Shown: positions 49,401-52,347 of the stretch, in pieces
Numbering within the stretch: position 1 is the first letter of the stretch
Layout: the number at the start of each line of letters is the position of its first letter
Assembly: GCA_013285805.1 (NCBI GenBank)
Contig: JABDGY010000008.1
Coordinates: 1 to 54,298 of the forward strand
From: Bacteroidota bacterium
GTDB lineage: Bacteria > Bacteroidota > Bacteroidia > JABEUT01
Length of the DNA: 54,298 nt
Reading direction: 5' to 3'
Translations under genes and position numbers: made by a program
Notes under the pieces: model-generated
What the model was told of the DNA's origin: nothing
The model's database searches: none
What the model saw: only the letters and a program-made list of their open reading frames with translations

Positions 49401-50285
49401 TCAACAGGCGTAATATACCCTTACCAGTATCTTATTCCCCTTTCTCCATCTTATCCAGCCCTGCTCTCCATAGTCGCCGCTATACACCTCTACATTCATC
49501 CAGTCTCCTTTCATTATGACTGTTGCCCTATTATTTACCATAATACCTTCGGCACGCCATATTTTACTCGCTCCTGCCAGGTTTTTAATTACTGTTGAGC
49601 TATCGTTTGGTTCCTTTCTTAAAGGATTTTCTTCCCTGTTAAAATCGCATCCAAGTCCTGTGTGTTCCTCAATAAATTGCGCCACCGTTTCATACCGGAA
49701 ACTCCTGTCTTTGATTTTTATGTACCCCCTTAAATTTTTCTTCTTGTTATAAATCACCTCATAGTACTTATCTGTTCTTTTCATACAGTCCATCGTTAAG
49801 GAGAAATAATCAGGGTTAGGTACAAACTCCCTGGGGTCGAAAAAATCAAAGAATTGAGGCTCTAAGGTGTCCGCCCTATATTTCTTGTTTTTATAAAATA
49901 CCCCCACTCCATTGCAGGAATCACTTTCACAATGTTCTATCGTGAGCATTATTTTACCGGTTGAATCATAAATCCAGTACTTTTCATCGAAACCCGTTAT
50001 TTCCATTATTCCAATTCCTCTGATACTATCCTCCGGCCTGAATTCTGCATCTTCTATTGAATCTCTAAGCTTCTTTTGTTTATCCGTTAATGTGTCGGCA
50101 GGATTATATTTATTCTGCACCAAATCAACATTAGGAAGTTTTGAATGAGAATCGTTTGGCATAACATCTTGTTTCTTGAAAAAATGTACGGTGTCCCCTT
50201 CATTTACTTTTATGGGCACACTATTGTTTCTGCAAGCTACCAGGCTTATTATACAAAACAGGATTATAAAATGCCTTGGGTACAC
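49401..50285 (-). CDS. Lipoprotein of unknown function with SH3-like C-terminus
   Basis: 294 residues. The start is GTG at 50285; an in-frame stop five codons upstream excludes anything longer. Lipobox S-L-V-A-C (Cys18). The middle is Asp-rich and charged. The C-terminal 60 residues (G-D-W-M-N-V-E-V-Y-S-G then G-W-I-R-W-R-K-G-N-K) resemble a bacterial SH3 barrel. Family not recognised beyond that. Convergent with the YIP1-like gene. Confidence 0.72.
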   Translation of the reverse strand: MYPRHFIILFCIISLVACRNNSVPIKVNEGDTVHFFKKQDVMPNDSHSKLPNVDLVQNKYNPADTLTDKQKKLRDSIEDAEFRPEDSIRGIGIMEITGFDEKYWIYDSTGKIMLTIEHCESDSCNGVGVFYKNKKYRADTLEPQFFDFFDPREFVPNPDYFSLTMDCMKRTDKYYEVIYNKKKNLRGYIKIKDRSFRYETVAQFIEEHTGLGCDFNREENPLRKEPNDSSTVIKNLAGASKIWRAEGIMVNNRATVIMKGDWMNVEVYSGDYGEQGWIRWRKGNKILVRVYYAC

Positions 50286-51125
50286 GGTGGTTAAATTCTA
50301 TTGTAAATGTATGAATTTACCCGTCGTATATGGGGGGTGTTGAAAACAAAATGCGATTTCACTTTTAAAACTACTTAGGGCTGCTGAACTTTGTGGTAAG
50401 ACCTCACCCCTAACCCATCTCCTTGTTCAAGGAGAGGGAAGGAATGTGATGGTGAATGTTCTTTGAAATAGTTTAGGAGTAAGTAATACCTCTGCGGCAC
50501 TCAGCGTGCAATTTGCTCAGCGTACTCTGCGGTAACCCTTCGACAGGCTCAGGGTGACTACTTAGTGCAACTTAGTGCTCTTCATGTCTTAGTGGTGAAG
50601 AATTTAAAATGATTTTTATTGATATTATCAATAAACATTATTGGTTTTCAGACACATGCAAATTCAATAACAATGGCCTTTTATTGATAATTCTATTGTT
50701 TATGCCTTGTTATTGCATTGATAAGTTATTGTTTTAACATACCTGTAAAGAGGTGTAAGGAATAAGGAGTAAGTCTTTGCAACCTTTGCGTGGCTGTTTA
50801 CTTTGCGACTTTGCGCGAAAAAAGTAAACAAAAGGTAAGAGTTTTTAAATGGCATATAATTGAAAATCAATATGTTAAATATAAAAAGCCCCCCAAAAGT
50901 GTTACCTTTCTAATAAAAGTAATTGAAAAACAGTGAGTTAGTAAAATTGACCGACTGAAAACGGCAAAAAATGGCAAGTTTTGGCAATGGGACGCAGATA
51001 CCGCAGATTGCTTATGATTATTTAAGATAAATCAGTGAAAATCTTATAGGATTAGCTTCATCAGCGTTCTAGCGGATACAACCTCACTCTGGCATACATC
51101 ATTTTCGGTCAGGCTCTATTCATTT
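50286..51125. repeat. Gene-free mosaic of small inverted repeats and repeat-like phrases
   Basis: No frame in this stretch looks coding. It contains: a 7-bp hairpin (50418-50424/50429-50435) inside CCTCACCCCTAACCCATCTC; a CTCTGCGGCACTCAGCG phrase (about 50491) and a related one near 50521; an ACCCT/AGGGT pair around TTCGACAGGCTC (50535-50555); ACTTAGTGCAACTTAGTGCT (about 50560); a 19-base palindrome with 9-bp arms (50616-50634); several TTATTG/ATTGATAA copies (50630-50735); a TTTGCG-rich phrase inside a 9-bp inverted repeat (50795-50803/50822-50830); and an ACGCAGATACCGCAGATT phrase (about 50992). From memory, several of these recur in Bacteroidota intergenic DNA. Confidence 0.65.
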
Positions 51126-51128
51126 TTT

Positions 51129-51136
51129 TACATTTG
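51129..51136 (+). promoter_or_regulatory. -7 promoter box (TACATTTG) of kbl
   Basis: A perfect TAnnTTTG box ending 17 bases before the kbl ATG. No TTG at the expected -33 distance. Confidence 0.5.
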
Positions 51137-51153
51137 TCCTATAATAATTACCT

Positions 51154-52347
51154 ATGTATAACGAAGCATTCCAACACCACTTACAGAACGAATTAAAAGC
51201 CATTGACGAGGCGGGCCTTTACAAACGCGAACGCATTATAATTACTCCGCAAGGAGCCGATATAAAAGTGCAGGGCGGCAAAGAGGTGATTAATTTCTGC
51301 GCCAATAACTACCTGGGCTTGTCATCGCACCCCGAGGTTATTGCTGCAGCAAAAAAGGCTTTGGATACACATGGTTATGGAATGTCGTCGGTGCGATTTA
51401 TTTGCGGTACGCAAGACATCCACAAAACACTGGAAGAAAAAATATCGAAGTTCTTAGGAACTGAGGACACGATTCTCTATGCGGCTTGCTTTGATTCTAA
51501 TGGAGGTGTGTTTGAACCTTTGTTTACCGAGCAAGATGCAATAATATCTGATGAACTTAACCATGCATCAATTATTGATGGTGTGCGCCTTTGCAAAGCC
51601 AAACGTTACCGTTACAAAAACTCTGATATGGCTGACCTTGAAGCGCAATTACAAGCAGCCAAGGCCGATAGGTTTAAGATTATTGTTACCGATGGTGTAT
51701 TTTCAATGGATGGCTACATTGCCAAGCTGAAAGACATTGTTGCCCTGGCAGAAAAATATGGTGCGCTTGTAATGGTTGACGATAGCCATGCAACTGGCTT
51801 TGTGGGTAAGACCGGCCGCGGTTCACATGAACATAACGAAGTTATTGGCAAGATTGATATACTTACAGGTACACTCGGCAAAGCTTTGGGTGGCGCCATG
51901 GGCGGATATACCAGCGGTAAAAAAGAAATTATTGATATGCTCCGCCAACGTTCACGTCCTTACCTGTTTTCAAACTCACTTGCACCTGTAATTACAGGCG
52001 CAGCTATTACAGTATTTGATTTATTGAGTAATACCACAGAATTGCGTGATAAGGTAATGAATAACGCTTTGTATTTCCGCGAAGGAATGACCAAGGCAGG
52101 ATTTGATATTAAGCCGGGCATACATCCCATTGTACCCGTTATGTTATACGATGCCAAACTATCGCAGACAATGGCCGACAAGCTTTTAGAGGAGGGTATT
52201 TATGTAATCGGCTTCTTCTACCCTGTGGTAGCTAAAGGACAGGCGCGTATAAGGGTTCAGTTATCAGCAGCGCATACCAGGCAGCACCTCGATAAAGCCA
52301 TTGCAGCGTTTACCAAGATTGGCAAGGAGCTTGGGGTGGTAAAGTAA
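51154..52347 (+). CDS. kbl: Glycine C-acetyltransferase (2-amino-3-ketobutyrate CoA ligase)
   Basis: 397 residues, the family length. A PLP-dependent alpha-oxoamine synthase that cleaves 2-amino-3-ketobutyrate with CoA to glycine and acetyl-CoA, the second step of threonine breakdown. The PLP lysine is Lys243 in [10 protein letters not shown]. Other marks are [20 protein letters not shown] and V-D-D-S-H-A-T-G-F. No threonine dehydrogenase gene is adjacent. Related serine palmitoyltransferase or KAPA synthase is less likely given the F-I-C-G-T-Q-D-I-H wording. Confidence 0.95.

Follow-up and report, generated by a model that had tools for sequence, protein, structure and literature searches.

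Gene transfer agents (GTAs) are encoded by dispersed operons and package DNA in a largely non-specific manner (PMC12946183). In the Caulobacter GTA, IHF acts with GafY at ~18 accessory promoters, and the system includes antitermination past tandem repeats (PMC11150451). Two further sites built around IHF are relevant here. BIME-1 elements consist of two opposed REPs around an IHF-interacting sequence (PMC2817692), and the cosB site of phage lambda has the order R3-I1-R2-R1, with R2 reversed, where IHF folds R3 onto R2 (PMC9026076). A literature search on gene transfer agents of the phylum, covering its sources in part, found no Bacteroidetes/Bacteroidota GTA.

Here we describe a repeat-rich noncoding gap upstream of kbl in the window, by which we mean the whole 54,298-nucleotide stretch of DNA analysed, and compare it with these systems. 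We propose, with moderate confidence, that the gap belongs to a GTA-like regulon as an untranslated member and carries nucleoprotein sites of a BIME-1/cosB-like kind.

The gap spans positions 50286-51153 (868 bp), between a minus-strand ORF (49401-50285), whose 294-aa product, a putative lipoprotein according to the first-pass annotation, had no NCBIfam match, and kbl (51154-52347), the product of which matches glycine C-acetyltransferase (TIGR01822, 696.9 bits). Its length and its right neighbour had been given correctly in the first-pass annotation, as had the gene-free run of repeat phrases, since short direct, inverted, and tandem repeats were detected inside this noncoding gap; the end placed at 51125 was 28 bp short (50286-51125 is 840 bp). 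A tRNA search of the gap found none, and an Rfam search returned nothing at E<=1. Comparison by blastn with phages produced best matches of E 0.07-0.9, which are not meaningful, and with plasmids no match. Within its own genome (G000, a 2.05-Mb assembly that is 60% complete), the gap had 78 matches at E<=10, self included, so its phrases are not all single-copy. Parts of query positions 257-503 recur at 10 other places with E<1e-30 and 83-92% identity. The A+T-rich core (50608-50743) is probably a diverged copy of the unit that we call R1, as suggested by a weak R1 match at 50624-50691 on the minus strand (19.9 bits, E 0.61). The features of the gap are listed in the table.

Table. Features of the noncoding gap upstream of kbl, in window coordinates.
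Feature	Position	Strand	Evidence
M1 promoter module: G-run, TGTTGAAAAC box (50338-50347), -7-like GAACTTTG (50386-50393)	50331..50393	+	exact GGGGGTGTTGAAAAC 13 times in G000
G+C-rich hairpin phrase CCTCACCCC...CTCCTTGTTCAAGGAG...	50402..50441	.	sequence; partial copies in G000 (query 116-160)
boxA-like GTTCTTTGAA	50458..50467	+	identical in 16S leaders; follows M1 in clusters
CTCTGCGG/CTCAGCG tandem words	50490..50535	+	copies in G000, cluster scan
CCCTTCGACAGGCTCAGGGTGAC palindromic REP-like phrase	50536..50559	.	copies in G000, cluster scan
ACTTAGTG tandem words, 10-bp period	50560..50602	+	TRF 50560-50578; copies in G000
A+T-rich core, ~125 bp, 11 copies in G000	50608..50743	+	alignment, 83-92% identity
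CTTTGCG tandem words, second set	50775..50818	+	copies in G000, tandem-repeat and cluster scans
R1 unit, 89 bp, arms around exact IHF consensus AATCAATATGTTA (50865-50877)	50821..50909	+	47.9 bits, E 2.3e-6
Second centre-like motif TTGAAAAACAGTGAGTTA and GGCAA words, partial unit	50923..50989	+	sequence, repeat D1, copies in G000
GACGCAGAT...ATCAGCG phrase	50991..51078	+	query 700-786; copies in C92, C72, C33 and others
kbl's own promoter (TTTTTTTACATTTG)	51123..51136	+	similar in sister species

The gap opens with the M1 module, TGTTGAAAAC-N39-AnnTTTG (50338-50393), and related noncoding zones likewise start with GGGGGGTGTTGAAAACAA, then GTTCTTTGAA. TAnnTTTG is the Bacteroidota -7 element. 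What had been taken as the start of a repeat landing site is instead a promoter and boxA leader common to phage-type operons. The sequence GGGGGTGTTGAAAAC was found 13 times in G000 and once each in four of 197 other genomes of the class, with no occurrence in G000 in the backward control. Scanning eleven genomes of the genus with the pattern TGTTGAAAACN{33,58}ANNTTTG gave 12, 12, 9, 17, and 7 matches in G000, G003, G004, G008, and G009, and 4, 1, 1, 1, 0, and 2 in G001, G002, G005, G006, G007, and G010; the backward control had 1 match in all genomes together. In the list of matches as read, a length of 55-57 bp was seen for 54 of the 57 in the first five genomes versus 2 of the 9 in the others. 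The five promoter-rich genomes are those in which the identity of the capsid gene to the G000 one reaches at least 89%, a co-occurrence of promoter, unit, and capsid that is weak evidence by itself given the common ancestry of the clade.

At this fixed spacing, M1 heads dispersed phage operons in G000 and four sister species, of the protease-capsid, head-tail/connector-tail, terS-terL-portal, and GTA_holin_3TM types. The M1-headed genes of G000 include a prohead protease and HK97-type capsid (PF04586, PF05065), head-tail and tail genes, a small terminase-like HTH protein (phrog_24579), and a GTA_holin_3TM protein (PF11351, E 1.5e-14), and terL and portal genes lie on C72 behind a variant M1 promoter. 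For the protease operon, TGTTGAAAAC stands at an equal distance from a TAnnTTTG-like element in G003, G004, and G008; the G009 sequence differs by one base. Readings of the promoter box as a CRISPR repeat or transposon end were dropped after phage operons were found behind it. Some M1 sites lie in front of ordinary rather than phage genes, which we take to be groES-groEL and DUF423-like.

Several M1 loci carried further features. TGTTGAAAAC occurs at promoter distance before an orthologous gene pair in five genomes (L173:3588, L164, L166, L184, L223), presumably a DUF423-like gene followed by a carboxypeptidase-like gene. On the minus strand of L035, from 2265, M1 precedes a small two-gene pair that is antitoxin-toxin-like by eye. 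A gene that appears by eye to encode a LexA-like repressor, downstream in L038 (G000 C27), adjoins an M1-boxA noncoding element and is a candidate regulator. The untranslated 5' leaders of protease operons (L120, L121, L122, L072) hold, by eye, an inverted, periodic word pair that differs from species to species.

The second element of the leader, GTTCTTTGAA, precedes 16S rRNA by ~145 bp in G000 and in five sister genomes, and lies close to this place of the 16S leader in two other genomes of the class, which identifies it as the local rrn boxA; the boxA of the gap is identical to it. Among 53 promoter sites inspected, with windows of up to 150 bp for boxA and 330 bp for a co-oriented gene, 9/10 sites with boxA had no such gene versus 13/43 sites without boxA (p 0.0008), where one tail-operon promoter is counted as noncoding because the fetched stretch ends there. 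The same comparison for G000 alone gave counts of 7, 0, 1, and 4 (p 0.010). The sole boxA site with a near co-oriented gene, in G008, precedes an OMP-like gene, and boxA is common only in the species of the window. BoxA is used on untranslated RNA, and its enrichment at gene-less promoters fits this role.

Phage structural loci are dispersed in G000 (C4 at 23.6 kb, C4 at 39.6 kb, C72, C67, and C43) and likewise in other species, the arrangement expected of a GTA. Both C4 structural operons stand behind an M1 promoter. On C4, the protease-capsid locus (L072:3554-6087) and the connector-tail-lysozyme locus (L072:19602-20000 and L073:1-6868) are ~16 kb apart among host genes. TerL matches PBSX-type TIGR01547, falling just short of the cut-off, and the portal is of the HK97 type. 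Among the ORFs read, none was noticed that would belong to an integration or replication module. The same operon is also present, at 95%, on a 5.5-kb IMG/VR contig, and the relatives of the capsid gene with named records are five Bacteroidetes/Bacteroidia MAGs, four of them of one series.

A capsid match was present in 7/60 relatives, own genome included. Identity to the G000 capsid (MCP) was 89-92% in four genomes (G009 92, G008 90, and G003 89%), 73% in G010, and 49% in G001; for kbl, it was 90% in G009, 90% in G008, and 89% in G003, values that follow those of the capsid, a close kbl being found in three of the four. The dN/dS was 0.03-0.07 over 10 pairs. G003, G008, and G009 have host genes around the capsid locus in common, few of them with G004, and the flanks of the G000 locus have hardly any host genes in common with the others beyond the operon. 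From these comparisons, the M1-headed phage set is under purifying selection and looks vertically inherited, like a GTA. In G001, the homologous genes form a contiguous terL-portal-protease-capsid-glycosyltransferase-connector-tail block without the promoter motif (C85:300-20219, L219). This is how an ordinary prophage would be arranged, and the block is possibly an ancestral-type prophage.

The remaining component, R1, was recognized in noncoding zones as inverted arms ~70 bp apart around TTGAAAATCA. A fixed-centre scan of fetched stretches from five genomes found 16 units versus 0 on reversed sequence. Their spacing peaks at 29 and 30/31 bp, and 1 to 3 of the 16 are odd in spacing or place and may have arisen by chance. 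Across the 11 of 16 units that were aligned, both sides had changed in 7/10 pairs and no shuffle reached the covariation score, which is partly built in because arm pairing was a selection criterion. A covariance model run against 60 relatives matched only G000, G003, G004, G006, G008, and G009, all of one genus, with 11, 25, 7, 17, 37, and 12 distinct units after removal of both-strand duplicates. The IHF consensus is WATCAANNNNTTR. Of 29 matches outside the training set, one of which is the window unit on the other strand, 14 contain it exactly and 22 with at most one mismatch, compared to 0.2% and 4.6% of shuffles. HU/IHF-family genes are present in 11/11 genomes of the genus, and IHF or HU would be the predicted binding protein.

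In the unit, an arm word is followed after 29 bp by the IHF site, then by a second arm word and an inverted one. A third arm word matching at least 6/8 positions after the centre was found in 25/39 units (at +10 in 20/39), compared to a mean of 5.4 and a maximum of 11 in shuffles. In the window unit, where the nearer arm pair is 50831-50840/50900-50909, the distance between these arms is ~10 bp short and the third word is indistinct, matching at 5/8. Exact unit patterns had 0, 0, and 0 occurrences in viral contigs. A coding role for the unit as a peptide was set aside due to stops in several copies.

The units are coupled to the promoter in one direction. In the five promoter-rich genomes, with 57 promoters, 22 units were located downstream of a promoter on its strand at up to 1 kb, versus 0.23 expected; 1 unit was downstream on the opposite strand and 0 were upstream. 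This placement involves 18/57 promoters and 22/92 units; for the other 70/92 units, no strict promoter lies on the same strand in the 1 kb upstream. The genomes are incomplete, and strict patterns miss variants. At four loci (G008 C4, G008 C64, G003 C6, and G000 C43), a unit follows an orphan TerS-like gene. These genes form three families: one with three members at 53% identity and a fourth at 29%, one with a single member ~36% identical to the true TerS, and one with two members at 50%. PHROG support for them was weak (E 2.6e-8 to 0.005) or, for some, lacking altogether. At the TerS-TerL loci, no unit was noticed.

Taken together, the gap may be an untranslated transcription unit, or a partly decayed copy of one, belonging to the regulon of a GTA-like phage remnant. 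The activator-type site TGTTGAAAAC, ~40 bp upstream of the Bacteroidota -7 element, would start the transcript, and the rRNA-type boxA would keep RNA polymerase moving through untranslated sequence. Downstream, one clear and one diverged 89-bp unit are laid out like an IHF-bent nucleoprotein site. Since M1 in sister copies drives orphan small-terminase-like genes followed by the unit, the likeliest role would be that of a site that works together with DNA-binding proteins of the terminase type once the phage-like system has been turned on; TerS binding and any part in packaging are predictions.

One alternative retains the units and dispenses with the packaging role. Possible, but doubtful in our estimate, are IHF-centred BIME-1/RIB-like structural repeats whose presence downstream of active promoters is maintained only for DNA bending, an effect on supercoiling, or transcript termination. 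An IHF consensus between inverted arms is the BIME-1 layout (PMC2817692), and some units stand apart from any promoter. G006 (99% complete), which also speaks against our own reading, has 17 units and a terS-terL pair without a close capsid gene or fixed-spacing promoters. However, the arm words vary by copy, a third arm copy occupies a fixed position in half of the units, orphan terS-like genes precede some of them, and the 7-37 copies per genome are below the >100 given for REPs.

A tentative alternative of similar standing is that the zones descend, in decayed form and without the gene, from a mobile cassette made up of promoter, gene, and units, and are functionless at most sites and MITE-like. 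The ordered, diverged, and truncated state of the copies favours this, as does ~1.1 kb with promoter, boxA, unit, and OMP-like gene between kbl and the next gene in G008, absent in G003, and the absence of the mosaic upstream of kbl in sister species. A clean empty site for the window mosaic was not found, and the upstream neighbour of kbl in G003, G008, and G009 is not the one in G000. Against this alternative, many diverged copies have kept the promoter spacing, boxA, and unit anatomy, and inspection of copies by eye showed no target duplication. The G008 insert (L252, C5:95.6-96.7 kb, downstream of kbl) is bounded by C/G-rich inverted phrases.

A stronger form of our proposal, which we consider unlikely, is a Bacteroidota GTA whose packaging is guided by sequence. 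Dispersed cosB-like IHF-bent sites, dozens in number and diversified in their arm words, would either set the starting points for packaging host DNA or behave as selfish packaging cassettes riding on the GTA. Some of these sites would be paired with an orphan small terminase of their own, many would be switched on by the GTA promoter, and the window mosaic would be a gene-less member. We regard as quite unlikely a structured regulatory RNA family in which hairpins rather than DNA sites act; units and phrases keep to one strand with respect to the promoter and the arms pair, but the unit centre fits the consensus of a DNA-bending protein, the 10-bp word period fits DNA helical phasing, and an Rfam match is absent.

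The remaining alternative depends on the arrangement of the modules, which was assessed with nine regular expressions on 517 kb of G000, a cluster being three or more modules; 14 oriented zones were read, from stretches around matches and part of the largest contigs. Strand-specific modules agreed in strand in all 12 clusters found, a count that leaves out the palindromic REP-like phrase and the low-complexity TGGCA word, which occurs on both strands. Each cluster carries a subset of the order promoter, boxA, TGCG words, TTAGTG words, core, TGCG words, GTTAC unit, and ATCAGCG phrase. The exceptions were the C3 copy, where the ATCAGCG phrase precedes the core, and copies C20, C56, and C71, where an extra TTAGTG pair follows it. 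In the reversed-sequence control, five phrase patterns gave 0 versus 23, 5, 12, 7, and 6 real matches, and M1, boxA, core, and TGGCA gave 8, 2, 1, and 39 versus 18, 14, 12, and 165. The same-order co-occurrence elsewhere that the first-pass annotation had proposed looking for is thus nearly always kept. Its reading of the gap as a landing zone where unrelated dispersed repeats accumulated was right about several repeat families, each of the many phrases having copies elsewhere, and fits the lack of such a mosaic upstream of kbl in sister species, but is very unlikely overall, since independent landing would give mixed order and both strands and the main modules keep one strand and a near-uniform order in 12/12 clusters, which rules out a random heap for them; individual phrases, the REP-like palindrome among them, may still have landed in this way.

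More broadly, what is dismissed as repeat debris can turn out to be the noncoding portion of a regulon. If this phage set is a GTA, a GTA-like system would exist outside the Alphaproteobacteria, with a regulon motif readable enough for its members to be listed from sequence. Noncoding members with IHF-type sites pose the question of whether GTAs use chromosomal sites to choose cargo.

Compared with known systems, the element is like the Caulobacter GTA regulon (GafY/IHF/GafZ; PMC11150451) in having promoters at many chromosomal sites, one activator-type control, and IHF, here by sequence, and the antitermination and tandem-repeat terminator of that system would have counterparts here. Unlike in Caulobacter, several loci share the phage genes between them, antitermination would use an rRNA-type boxA, and the IHF-like sites lie downstream, in untranslated zones. 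With E. coli BIME-1/RIB, the unit has in common two inverted arms around an IHF-type sequence, judged from the letters only, and an intergenic, dispersed occurrence in a mosaic with other repeats. It differs in its variable arm sequence, frequent third arm copy, and the directional tie of many units to one promoter type, and its 7-37 units fall below the high copy number (>100 per genome in one sequence family) of those repeats. The order R - IHF - R - R of lambda cosB, with one R opposite, is found in the unit family, with the third word of the window unit at 5/8, and TerS-like genes lie near some copies; unlike cosB, there are many copies per genome, and no adjoining TerL was noticed. As in phage-inducible chromosomal islands with their own TerS, an orphan packaging-specificity gene lies by a putative recognition site and is co-regulated with a helper, but the loci are much smaller, no integrase or replication module was noticed, and the helper would be a GTA. 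The element thus resembles parts of the Caulobacter GTA, BIME-1, and cosB, and is filed as a member of none of them.
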